This document shows, piece by piece, positions 5,434-11,679 of a stretch of 64,000 nt of DNA. Every line of letters begins with the position of its first letter. Positions within the stretch are counted from its first letter, which is position 1. The DNA lies in contig NZ_CP032094.1 of the NCBI RefSeq assembly GCF_003544875.1, positions 558,001 to 622,000 on the forward strand, given 5' to 3'. The notes beneath the pieces are model-generated. The model worked only from the letters and a program-made list of their open reading frames with translations. It had not been told where the DNA came from and made no database searches. This DNA is from Vibrio alfacsensis. GTDB taxonomy: Bacteria > Pseudomonadota > Gammaproteobacteria > Enterobacterales > Vibrionaceae. Both the position numbers and the translations under genes were made by a program.

Positions 5434-5476
5434 TGTCGTTAAATGGCAATTATGCAGTGTAACGGCGAGGTATTTT
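5434..5476 (+). promoter_or_regulatory. Candidate promoter with shared 19-nt element (copy A)
   Basis: TGTCGTTAAATGGCAATTA (5434-5452) is followed by a -10-like TATTTT at 5471-5476. The same element and spacing recur at 7744, 9173 and, on the minus strand, 11661-11679. The element takes the place of a recognisable -35, as in activator-dependent promoters. It points towards the HlyD-family gene; katG starts 79 nt away in the other direction. Confidence 0.6.
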
Positions 5477-5539
5477 CCGTCCTAAACAACGCTATCTGAT
5501 GTGCGGAAGCATAGTTAAAGCAAGGTAGCCGACAATAAA

Positions 5540-6718
5540 ATGGGGTGGACGATGGCGCAACAAATTAGTGAAACCAACAATGTTTCGATAAACAAAAGTT
5601 CGACAAATAATGAATCGGATCAAAAGAAATCGACGAATAGTGAACAACTTCAACCCAGAGTGAACAAAGTCAGGCTAATTACTAATGCGATATTTCTTTT
5701 AGTTTTGGCTTCTATTGTCATTTACATTGCCGCAGATCGCGTAGTTCCCTCAACGGATAATGTACGTGTTGAGGGTAATATTGTTTCTTTAATTCCTCAA
5801 GTCTCAGGCCAAGTCGCGAGCATCCATGTACAACCAAATAGCCAAGTTCAGAAAGGCGACGTGTTAGTTAAGATTGCTTCCGAAGATTATGAAATTGCCG
5901 TCAAACAAGCAGAAATGCAGCTCGAGCTCGCTGGTCAGCAGGTTGGGGGACAGATGGCAAATGTTTTGTCTGCTCAAGCGCAGTTAACGACGGCACTTGT
6001 CTCGCAGGAAAATGCTAAGCGCCAAGGGCAGCGCGTTTTTGTTATGGCCGAAAAAGGTGTGGTGTCAAAATCAGATGCCGATCAAACTCGCGCTGCAATA
6101 GAGAAAGCGGACGCTGATGTGCTTAACGCAAGAGCAAACCTTGAGAAAGCAAAAACTCAAGTAGGCACAACAGGGGAAGAAAACGCGCAGATTCAAGCCG
6201 CGCTATTAACGTTACAGAAAGCACAGTTGGATTTGGAGAGAACCGTGATTCGTGCGCCATCCGATGGTGCGGTCACCAACTTCAATTTATCAGCCGGTGC
6301 GTATGCGGCTGCGGGAAGACCGTTAATGACATTCGTTGAAAAAGACAGTTTGTGGATAGAAGCGTTCTTCCGAGAAAACAGTATGGGGCGCATTAAAGCA
6401 GGTGACAGAGTCGACGTTGCATTGGATTTTGCACCAGGCGAAACCTTTGACGGGGTTGTGAGTTCGGTTGATCTTGGTGTTGCTTGGGGTGCTAATCACC
6501 AGCCAGGTGCGTTAGCCAGTGTTCAAAACCAAAATGGCTGGCTGCGTGATACGCAACGTATGCCGGTGATTGTTCAACTAACGGATCCTCATGCCTTGAA
6601 CATGATGAGAATTGGTGGTCAAGCTGATGTGATTGTTTATACAGGAGGGAATAAGGTTTTCAATTGGTTAGGTAACGTTTGGATTCACTTGGTAAGTTGG
6701 TTCTCTTATGTTCGATAA
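5540..6718 (+). CDS. HlyD/EmrA-family membrane fusion protein
   Basis: Periplasmic adaptor of an efflux or secretion system. The 392 residues run: polar cytoplasmic N-terminus (1-42), one transmembrane anchor (about 44-65), a biotinyl-lipoyl half motif (VEGNIVSLIPQVSGQV), a coiled-coil hairpin (about 120-225), the second lipoyl half (VIRAPSDGAV) and a beta-barrel region. This is the EmrA/AaeA layout. The reading frame overlaps the next gene by 11 nt, so the two are translationally coupled. The start could be ATG 5540 or ATG 5552; the latter sits closer to GGGGTGG. No outer-membrane channel gene is adjacent. Confidence 0.9.
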   Translation: MGWTMAQQISETNNVSINKSSTNNESDQKKSTNSEQLQPRVNKVRLITNAIFLLVLASIVIYIAADRVVPSTDNVRVEGNIVSLIPQVSGQVASIHVQPNSQVQKGDVLVKIASEDYEIAVKQAEMQLELAGQQVGGQMANVLSAQAQLTTALVSQENAKRQGQRVFVMAEKGVVSKSDADQTRAAIEKADADVLNARANLEKAKTQVGTTGEENAQIQAALLTLQKAQLDLERTVIRAPSDGAVTNFNLSAGAYAAAGRPLMTFVEKDSLWIEAFFRENSMGRIKAGDRVDVALDFAPGETFDGVVSSVDLGVAWGANHQPGALASVQNQNGWLRDTQRMPVIVQLTDPHALNMMRIGGQADVIVYTGGNKVFNWLGNVWIHLVSWFSYVR

Positions 6719-7709
6719 AATGACGCCCACTCAAGAAAAGCGAGTTTTGCGGTATATTTTAGCGGTGGGGTTCGCGACGTTTTTGGCGGTTTGGTTTAAT
6801 TGGCCTCTCGCATTTTGTGCGCCATTGTTTACTGCGAAGTTTATTGTTGATAAACCAAGTTTTCACATGATGCATGTGAAGCAACTGTTGTTCGCCTTGT
6901 TATCGACCGGGGTGATTGGTCTGTTAGTGTCTACGGGATTGCCAAATTACAAAGTGCCATTTTTGTTGGTGCTGTCTGCTGGTTTGATGTGGGGTTACTA
7001 CCTATTTACAGACGCTAAGTGGACCATGTTTGCAACGTTTTTAATCATTGAGTTGGTGTTGATTCCTGCACTGACCATCATTGATAAGCAAGCAGCATTG
7101 GATGTGGCTGGTGGATTTGCTTTCTCGGGCACATTAGCTGTCGCTTTGTATGCGTTGTCTCATGTGTACTTTCCTGAAGAGCGTTCAGAGTTTCAGGGTT
7201 TTCCATCCTCACCGCTACCTGATGACGTTCGGTGGCACGCTGCATTGAGAGCGTTAGTGATCTCCTTTCCGCTCCTTTGTTTATTTTTCTTCTTCCAACT
7301 GTCTCATGTTTTATTGACGGTAGCGTTTGTTGCCTTACTTGCCTTTATGACAACGGGTGAAAAAGCTAAGAAAACGACGCTGTTTTTTGTTGTCAGCAAC
7401 CTAATCGGCGGCATAGTGGCGTTTATCGTTTTCTTTATTATGTCACTGGTTCCTAATATGTATTTCTACATGCTGGTGATGTTACTGGTCATCTCACTCT
7501 TCGGAACGTTCATTTATGTATATCCAGAAAAAGCGCCAATTTTTGCCACGGCATTCACTGGTTTTACTGTGTTGATGGGGACTTCGATGACAACGGGAGG
7601 GTTAGACGACAAATTCTTTGCACGAATCTTTCAGCTTATTTTGGTTGTTGCTTATATGGTGTTCATGGCGTATTTCCTAGAAAGTCGTCAACAAAAGCAT
7701 GCCAGATAA
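6708..7709 (+). CDS. DUF2955 family inner-membrane protein (FUSC-like transporter partner)
   Basis: A 333-residue, strongly hydrophobic protein with about ten membrane segments arranged as two clusters around a polar loop near residues 155-175. This is the FUSC/aromatic-acid exporter-like layout that DUF2955 proteins show, and they are typically encoded next to an EmrA/HlyD adaptor, as here. It probably forms the inner-membrane part of an efflux pair with the preceding gene. The substrate is unknown. The shared promoter element links it to the amidohydrolase and decarboxylase genes that follow. Confidence 0.8.
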   Translation: MFDKMTPTQEKRVLRYILAVGFATFLAVWFNWPLAFCAPLFTAKFIVDKPSFHMMHVKQLLFALLSTGVIGLLVSTGLPNYKVPFLLVLSAGLMWGYYLFTDAKWTMFATFLIIELVLIPALTIIDKQAALDVAGGFAFSGTLAVALYALSHVYFPEERSEFQGFPSSPLPDDVRWHAALRALVISFPLLCLFFFFQLSHVLLTVAFVALLAFMTTGEKAKKTTLFFVVSNLIGGIVAFIVFFIMSLVPNMYFYMLVMLLVISLFGTFIYVYPEKAPIFATAFTGFTVLMGTSMTTGGLDDKFFARIFQLILVVAYMVFMAYFLESRQQKHAR

Positions 7710-7743
7710 AACAAAAGTGAGTTTTTAGCCCAGATGGTCACAG

Positions 7744-7786
7744 TGTCGCAAAATGGCAATTAAATCAGCAAGGCTCTGGCTAAACT
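7744..7786 (+). promoter_or_regulatory. Candidate promoter with shared 19-nt element (copy B)
   Basis: TGTCGCAAAATGGCAATTA (7744-7762) precedes a -10-like TAAACT (7781-7786), 67 nt before the amidohydrolase start. Orientation and spacing match copies A, C and D. Confidence 0.65.
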
Positions 7787-7829
7787 GGCTCCATCAGTTA
7801 AGCGAAACAACCTTACCGAGGAAAGCGAA

Positions 7830-10785: not shown

Positions 10786-10947
10786 TCATGCCATCACATA
10801 ACGATAAGTCTTAACGGCTAGCCAGCGACAGCCTTTGAACAATACTTTGATGGTTTTGAATGCGAATTTGCTGATCGCTACCAAGAGTTCGCCAGCGACG
10901 ATTAGGCAAGTATGCAAGTCAGTATGTTTGAAATCGGCGTAAGTCAT
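10786..10947 (-). CDS. Small hypothetical protein (53 residues)
   Basis: A 53-codon minus-strand frame runs from ATG 10947 to TGA 10786-10788. It begins MTYADFKHTDLHT, has a hydrophobic middle (CLIVAGELLVAISKFAF) and a basic, aromatic C-terminus (KGCRWLAVKTYRYVMA). The layout suggests a single amphipathic or membrane-associated helix with a positive tail. A purine-rich AGAAGAGACG precedes the start, a weak ribosome site. It lies alone between two terminators. I do not recognise it; whether it is a real gene is uncertain. Confidence 0.45.
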   Translation of the reverse strand: MTYADFKHTDLHTCLIVAGELLVAISKFAFKTIKVLFKGCRWLAVKTYRYVMA

Positions 10948-11213
10948 TTTCGTCTCTTCTCATATTGATTAAGTGGAAGACTCCTGTCTCTTTATGCATA
11001 CCTTGCGTCTGTGGATACATAGTAGGAATTTGTGGTATTGCAGACTTACCATTTGGCGCCAATGCCTCTAGAAAACATACAAATTGAACATGATTGAAAT
11101 GACGTTGCCATTTGTTGTGAGAATGTATTGAAGTGATACGTGTGTTCAGTGCTGTCACGTGTATTGCATCCAGGCGGATTACCTGTTGAGGTGAGTAGCG
11201 TGAGTTTCAAAGC
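10948..11213. other. Non-coding gap
   Basis: No gene can be supported here. On the minus strand, 11104-11114 contains AAATGGCAACG, a weak resemblance to the core of the shared promoter element but without the TGTCG half. Confidence 0.4.
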
Positions 11214-11242
11214 AAAAAAAGCCATCACTAAATGTGATGGCT
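11214..11242 (-). terminator. Intrinsic terminator of the small secreted-protein gene
   Basis: Read on the minus strand, GCCATCAC pairs with GTGATGGC around a 5-nt loop and runs into seven T (A tract 11214-11220 on the plus strand). Confidence 0.85.
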
Positions 11243-11284
11243 TGGTAGAGAGGTAAGTAAGGAAATGTTAGTTAATATAACGAC

Positions 11285-11605
11285 TTAGTACTTAACAAAA
11301 AGCATTTTTCTTAGGCTGTTACAACGGGATTTATCCAACTTATCACCTAAATATTCACCGTCTTCTGCTGCTTTCTTCATGATGAGTGCTTTCGCTCGAT
11401 CACCGCTATCTAAATGGTCATATTCTTCGTAGGTTTTTAATTTTAGTAAGCGATATTTTGACTTATCTTTGCCCGACGCAACGTGGTCGTAACAATAACT
11501 CATCGCCCCTGCATTTGCGCCAACTTTACTGGCATCTGTGATGGCATAGGCGTTAAAACCGATTGTGCTTGTTAACAAAATCAAAAGGGCATTACGTGCT
11601 TTCAT
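11285..11605 (-). CDS. Small secreted two-cysteine protein, unknown function
   Basis: A 106-residue protein with a clear signal peptide (MKARNALLILLTSTIGFNAYA, cleavage after AYA). The mature part is small, helical-looking and highly charged, with two cysteines (SYCYDH and SRCNSL) that could form one disulphide. HdeA-type acid chaperones have the same general build, but I see no convincing sequence match. The start is ATG 11605, preceded by AGGAACG at good spacing; a longer frame from 11770 runs through the promoter and lacks a signal sequence at its start. Its promoter carries copy D of the shared element. Confidence 0.8.
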   Translation of the reverse strand: MKARNALLILLTSTIGFNAYAITDASKVGANAGAMSYCYDHVASGKDKSKYRLLKLKTYEEYDHLDSGDRAKALIMKKAAEDGEYLGDKLDKSRCNSLRKMLFVKY

Positions 11606-11638
11606 TTTCGTTCCTAATTCAACAAATCTTAGGGACAC

Positions 11639-11679
11639 AATACAGGGAGGTGATAAGGAAAAATTGCCATTAAGCGACA
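11639..11679 (-). promoter_or_regulatory. Candidate promoter with shared 19-nt element (copy D)
   Basis: On the minus strand TGTCGCTTAATGGCAATTT (11679 down to 11661) precedes a -10-like TGTATT (11644-11639). It is 55 nt before the start of the small secreted protein, the same distance as copy C. Confidence 0.6.

Follow-up and report, generated by a model that had tools for sequence, protein, structure and literature searches.

A promoter element shared by efflux, amidohydrolase and small-protein genes of Vibrio alfacsensis, a candidate operator of AraC/XylS-family regulators

The stretch of DNA analysed here (the window) comprises 64,000 nt of the 4.91-Mb genome of Vibrio alfacsensis and corresponds to C2:558001-622000. 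In one part of it an efflux gene pair, an amidohydrolase gene, a gene of the pyridoxal phosphate (PLP)-dependent decarboxylase family and the gene of a small secreted protein are each preceded by a copy of a 19-nt element, TGTCGNNAAATGGCAATTA (Table 1). The initial annotation had described four such copies with these targets, all intergenic and pointing at the next gene, and all of this was borne out: three copies on the plus strand are perfect and the fourth, on the minus strand, has 2 mismatches. At up to 3 mismatches the window holds these 4 matches, whereas 0.29 +/- 0.56 were expected (100 shuffles, largest 2). The V. harveyi-like orthologue of the small secreted protein is preceded by the same element (L067:7023). 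The first copy is only 78 nt from the start of the divergent katG, but it is oriented towards the efflux genes, and we did not assign katG to the regulon. We also found a fifth, variant site, absent from the initial annotation, 5' of an open reading frame (ORF) of 53 amino acids (aa). The two forms are called type I and type II below.

Table 1. Elements and genes in the window
Feature	Position	Strand	Remarks
type I element	5434..5452	+	0 mismatches; 5' of HlyD/DUF2955 pair; -10-like TATTTT at 5471-5476
type I element	7744..7762	+	0 mismatches; 5' of amidohydrolase; -10-like TAAACT at 7781-7786
type I element	9173..9191	+	0 mismatches; 5' of PLP decarboxylase; -10-like TATATT at 9209-9214
type I element	11661..11679	-	2 mismatches; 5' of small secreted protein; -10-like TATTGT at 11642-11637
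type II element (TGGCGCCAAATGGTAAGT)	11044..11061	-	5' of 53-aa ORF; -10-like TACTAT at 11024-11019
katG	3175..5355	-	divergent from HlyD gene; not assigned to regulon
HlyD-type membrane-fusion protein	5540..6718	+	
DUF2955 membrane protein	6708..7709	+	
amidohydrolase	7830..9092	+	closest solved relatives 3mkv, 3feq/3n2c (prolidase)
PLP-dependent decarboxylase family protein	9247..10677	+	
53-aa ORF (MTYADFKHTDLHTC...), conserved small protein	10786..10947	-	relatives in 19 other loci
small secreted protein	11285..11614	-	no Pfam or NCBIfam match

The type I element has a core of 18 nt, TGTC[GA]NNAAATGGCAATT, and its position relative to the -10 box is nearly fixed. In the window the -10-like hexamers begin 19, 19, 18 and 19 nt past the core. 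The first three hexamers had been named before and still stand; for the fourth, TATTGT at 19 nt suits the rule of the family better than the TGTATT at 17 nt that had been chosen. Removal of near-identical promoters from 106 contexts left a set of 82, which omits sites inside ORFs of at least 120 aa and sites without a downstream gene start, as well as the fourth window site, which lies beneath an over-long ORF start. The conserved columns of this set are TGTC[GA]YNAAATGGCAATT followed downstream by a TAnnnT hexamer. Letter 19 of the element is weakly kept (A in 38 of the 82), and apart from the -10 box the flanks are unconserved. The -10-like hexamer lies 18 or 19 nt past the core in 62 of the 82 promoters, and no other pair of adjacent offsets accounts for more than 12. 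Because the usual spacer between the -35 and -10 boxes is about 17 nt, the -35 position would coincide with the final letters of the element, where TTGACA was not seen in the promoter set. An element that overlaps the place of the -35, at a fixed distance from the -10 and with no -35 consensus, is the layout predicted for a class II arrangement, and this geometry supports the earlier suggestion that the element occupies the place of an activator overlapping the -35. The inner part AATGGCAATT had been read as an 8/10 dyad. This is literally correct, but the conserved columns are better described by the direct repeat TG(T/G)C..TGGC, in which the step is 10 bp. From the start of the half-site TGTC[GA] to that of TGGCA these columns give 10 bp, which matches the expectation for the two helix-turn-helix motifs of an AraC domain.

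The regulon is not confined to the window. Across the genome, TGTCGNNNAATGGCAATT was found at six places at 0-1 mismatch, all on one chromosome; the two beyond the window, C2:284126 (-) and C2:867649 (-), lie directly 5' of a small membrane protein gene and an OprB porin gene, respectively. The places with 2 mismatches that we examined in this genome were mostly intragenic. In a sample of 61 Vibrio genomes that includes this one, TGTCGNNAAATGGCAATT at up to 1 mismatch occurred at 39 places in 19 genomes, and the genes behind the promoter-placed matches encode amidohydrolases, HlyD, OprB porins, a small membrane protein and small secreted proteins. The same regulon is thus present in many Vibrionaceae, and the word "local" in the initial annotation has to be given up.

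An AraC-family protein of about 335 aa recurs around the type I sites in the Vibrio genomes. A search with an alignment of 13 members (E <= 1e-40) found the family in 23 of the 61 genomes, and intergenic type I sites occurred in 13 of these 23 versus none of the 38 others. The six type I places in the family-less genomes are all intragenic (L031, L034, L042, L045, L046 and L048), while 31 of the 33 places in the family genomes are intergenic and two intragenic (L053 and L054). Five sites overlapped by nothing more than an antisense ORF or the over-long start of an ORF (L036, L049, L171, L185 and the fourth window site) were counted as intergenic, and so was L073:8430 in G006, which has no gene start behind it. 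At L073:8430 a perfect TGTCATCAAATGGCAATT has been retained, while the amidohydrolase found at the same spot in G005 (L072) has been lost.

We also took a consensus from the four window sites only and applied it to 78 named loci that surround relatives of the regulator. They come from Vibrio, Aliivibrio, Photobacterium, Shewanella, Psychromonas and various metagenome-assembled genomes (MAGs), and some belong to the same species as the 61 genomes. At up to 1 mismatch all 24 matches were promoter-placed (100 permuted patterns: mean 0.2, maximum 2). At up to 2 mismatches there were 52 matches, 45 promoter-placed and 3 coding (permuted means 2.64, with 0.22 promoter-placed), and at up to 3 mismatches there were 136, of which 79 were promoter-placed and 41 coding (permuted means 36.75 and 3.42). 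The initial annotation had proposed a genome scan for promoter bias and a nearby regulator gene, with a dispersed repeat lacking promoter bias as the opposing outcome; promoter-placed matches and AraC-family neighbours were found, and such a repeat was not seen. Chance similarity or a dispersed repeat is accordingly hardly credible as an explanation. At 2 mismatches the matches in most genomes are about equal to the reversed control, as such a reading would predict, but it leaves aside the excess at 0-1 mismatch, the promoter placing and the flanks that are unconserved except for the -10 box. A mobile repeat was rejected, since the flanks are unconserved.

Outside Vibrio the picture is sparser. 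A scan of the whole order gave a match at up to 1 mismatch in 68 of 197 genomes, mostly background. A search that scored no more than 11 candidates per genome showed the AraC family in at least eight non-Vibrio genomes, and four of them have such a match near the family gene, right behind it in G113 and G164 and within about 5.5 kb in G198 and G211. In two gammaproteobacterial MAG loci (L235 and L240), elements lie on both strands between an AraC-type gene and a divergent gene of 474-482 aa.

Six whole members of the family were scanned, and HTH_18 scored above its cut-off in all of them, as it did in the C-terminal piece of this strain's interrupted gene; PF12625 (Arabinose_bd) was above the Pfam cut-off in one of the six, below it in three and without a match in two. 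The regulator class can very probably be named as AraC/XylS from the HTH_18 matches and the gene neighbourhoods. It is improbable that a regulator of another family, for example a LysR or OmpR/PhoB-like protein, recognises the dyad or direct repeat in the element while the AraC genes adjoin for some other reason. The dyad in AATGGCAATT and the fact that PhoB-type sites are also direct repeats speak for such a regulator, but both element types are tracked across the genomes by the AraC family, as expected from the earlier claim of one kind of regulator behind the shared element, and related AraC regulators have similarly spaced motifs. A PhoB/OmpR-like direct repeat was ruled out by the 10-bp step and the AraC neighbours, and the dyad or LysR reading was rejected.

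Among known AraC-family systems, the closest likeness was found in Pseudomonas aeruginosa. An intact protein of the clade termed clade 1 below was modelled with a predicted local distance difference test score (pLDDT) of 87.7, and a fold search with the model placed CdpR (5chh) first, followed by an N-terminal fragment of VirS and AraC-type DNA-binding domains. The CdpR/VqsM motifs RGWYNNNWNCGGCCA and GGATSNNNTYGGCCA, as given in excerpts of PMC8151288, likewise combine a short half-site with a GGCC placed about one helical turn away. However, the fold alignment has only about 19% identity, and the other motif letters and the targets differ; the likeness is one of fold and motif. In the same excerpts, GliR (PA3027) has the motif YYGGCGHTDTYSGMC, whose reverse complement, GKC-N7-GCC, resembles GTC-N7-GGC of the Vibrio element, and its sites lie upstream of or overlap the -35 as the Vibrio element does (PMC8151288). 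The GliR site is GC-rich, though, its targets are glycerolipid genes, and three members of the Vibrio family scored 44.9, 43.9 and 52.8 bits with the GliR equivalog model NF050186, far below its cut-off of 570. Excerpts of PMC3900636 describe SphR, which is likened here by motif and regulon size, as an activator of the AraC family that has TG-led half-sites (TGNCCSNNRNNSNCC) and controls few targets, but it has two such repeats 6-8 bp apart and sphingosine targets. The best NCBIfam model for three members scanned was the AraC-like regulator QhpR, with scores of 97.9, 77.3 and 69 bits that stay below the cut-off of 250 for this equivalog (NF049968). We found no description of the present regulon in the open-licence literature.

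The variant site in the window belongs to a second form of the element. A sequence model was built from 71 of the 82 promoters, with 6 doubtful ones and the 5 contexts of this genome removed, and 150 of 1375 first-look candidates in this genome were scored with it. Among the candidates scored, the six type I sites of the genome ranked first (E 4e-5 to 0.004), although the model had been built without them, and the seventh was window 11018-11062 (-) with E 0.012, 5' of the 53-aa ORF; the eighth, C1:1446725, is intragenic. The 53-aa ORF occurs in 20 loci, a count that leaves out four duplicate rows of this genome, and 18 of the 20 have a variant of the element at up to 4 mismatches, 56-101 nt 5' of it. 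In random 260-mers the variant was met at up to 3 mismatches in 0.9% and at up to 4 in 3.4%. L197, from an Aliivibrio fischeri genome, has the 53-aa ORF as well as two perfect type I sites. This type II form is TGGC[GA]NNAAATGGTAANT. Exact TGGCRNNAAATGGTAANT was found at 31 places in 22 of the 61 Vibrio genomes (reversed control 0), namely in 21 of the 23 AraC-family genomes versus one of the 38 others, where it is intragenic. Of 30 places inspected among the 31, 29 lie outside ORFs of at least 120 aa, and at 25 of them the -10-like hexamer is again found at offset 18 or 19. In this genome an exact type II element also stands 5' of a 38-aa ORF (MIVYFRVKDVEVLCDEIDLAT...) behind the intact AraC gene (L341, C2:878310, minus strand). 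This ORF belongs to a family of 28-39 aa, in which 21 of 23 relatives from other loci have a variant at up to 3 mismatches within 160 nt 5'; three of these relatives are weak (E 0.02-0.16), and L039 (E 0.42) was set aside.

The two forms seem to follow two clades of the regulator. In a tree of 44 proteins, from which 9 of the AraC-like proteins collected were left out, clade 1 has 18 members and clade 2 has 21, each with a support of 1.0. Many clade 1 genes adjoin amidohydrolase/DUF3299/OprB or decarboxylase genes, and many clade 2 genes adjoin HlyD-DUF2955 genes, often followed by AI-2E, as well as small ORFs. Clade labels were assigned from locus maps and the tree, and in G001 and G059 from split ORFs. 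Intergenic type I sites were found in 12 of 17 clade 1 genomes, in none of the five with clade 2 only and in none of the 38 with neither; the V. alfacsensis genome, discussed below, has them as well. Exact type II places occurred in 20 of 21 clade 2 genomes versus 2 of 40 others.

We are fairly confident that the element is the operator of a single AraC/XylS-family lineage in Vibrio and its relatives, with a code apparently split between clades. Starting from the sites, their geometry, the co-occurrence and the gene neighbours, all observed directly, we infer binding and activation of the following kind. One regulator molecule would put its two helix-turn-helix motifs on TGTC[GA] and TGGCA, one helical turn apart. 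Since the 3' part of the element covers the place of the -35 hexamer, the protein, once bound, would take over from the absent -35 in recruiting sigma-70 RNA polymerase (class II activation). The two clades would have divided the operator code, clade 1 working with type I and clade 2 with type II.

Several observations weigh against this interpretation. Type I sites at up to 1 mismatch are missing from ten of the 23 family genomes, and the genome-wide counts at 2-3 mismatches are near the control, with too much background. Five clade 2 promoters are mixed or type I-like (L066, L071, L157, L158 and L167; TGGCGTGAAATGGCAACT), and in nine canonical spaces between clade 2 and HlyD genes that were inspected there was no site at up to 3 mismatches. 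The species share ancestry, so the co-occurrence tests are not fully independent and their p-values serve as a guide only. The sole exception to the pairing of clade 1 with type I sites is the V. alfacsensis genome itself, which has five or six type I sites and an interrupted clade 1 gene.

In this strain the clade 2 gene is intact (C2:877095-878084), whereas its single clade 1 gene is broken into pieces separated by stops (C2:869984-870989), and the amidohydrolase beside it is also interrupted. Either the cognate activator was lost recently, or the clade 2 protein serves the promoters, or the assembly is in error. The four type I promoters in the window may accordingly have lost their activator not long ago, or they may depend on the clade 2 protein. 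If orphaned, they would now be silent or constitutive and the perfect sites would be relics, a possibility that we hold tentatively and to which we give somewhat less than an even chance; it competes only with the view that this strain still uses the sites. It is favoured by the stops in the clade 1 gene and the break in the adjoining amidohydrolase, and by an intact protein, P0068, that is 98% and 90% identical to the two pieces. In four relatives with decarboxylase orthologues (75-80% identity) an AraC gene lies directly 5' in all four, and none does so in the window; the clade 2-only genomes, moreover, lack intergenic type I sites (0/5). However, three of the four sites are perfect, and other ORFs in the window look split too, so that an error of assembly may account for the break; type I sites could also be bound by the clade 2 protein. 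A broader reading of the same facts, which seems to us about evenly balanced, is that in Vibrionaceae the operator code of a duplicated AraC activator has divided into two forms (TGTC..TGGCAATT versus TGGC..TGGTAA) and that this strain was caught just after one activator broke, with its sites still perfect. A few letters would then separate two interlocked regulons, whose members include enzymes that hydrolyse amides, a porin, efflux operons and small unlisted ORFs of two families (53 aa and 28-39 aa).

The finding is real, one activator as its basis has good support, and the regulon is of a known kind, with a probable operator code of two paralogues; the AraC/XylS class for the element, the second variant and the small-protein targets go beyond the initial annotation. 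The regulator probably senses a small compound of the amide, amine or peptide-like kind, one that the regulon would hydrolyse, import or expel. The role in acid or redox stress proposed in the initial annotation is unsupported. Amidohydrolases are usually metal enzymes, and DUF3299 proteins beside them may therefore help with metal supply. A DUF3299 protein, ZrgE, is part of a zinc-starvation operon of V. parahaemolyticus according to an excerpt of PMC9817125. An operator and a regulator class can now be given for puzzling Vibrio genes, including DUF2955, several amidohydrolases, the DUF3299/OprB neighbours and the two families of small ORFs, which came to light through the element. The inducer becomes a direct question, as reporter fusions with these promoters can be screened, and two paralogues with similar but separable sites offer a natural case of divergence in AraC specificity.

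Some further observations were made in passing. At L159:11152-13354 a solitary autotransporter barrel (Omp_AT) is followed by an element with 2 mismatches and then by a PAS-GGDEF protein, and L160, L162, L163 and L165 have the same layout, judged by ORF sizes; a link to cyclic di-GMP is possible. In the window, several ORFs seem split or truncated (25673-29217, 32472-33955 and 38227-49553 on the minus strand), among them a sensor kinase, an O-antigen ligase-like protein, an epimerase and a UDP-sugar dehydrogenase, and they look like assembly indels or decaying genes. An ORF at 58502-59239 (-) resembles an insertion-sequence transposase by eye. The AraC protein of this genome shares only 75% identity with one named V. 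alfacsensis, but the first 10 kb of contig C3 (L273, 176 kb) match two Vibrio alfacsensis plasmids at 98% identity; dmpG lies in this part and hints at aromatic degradation.

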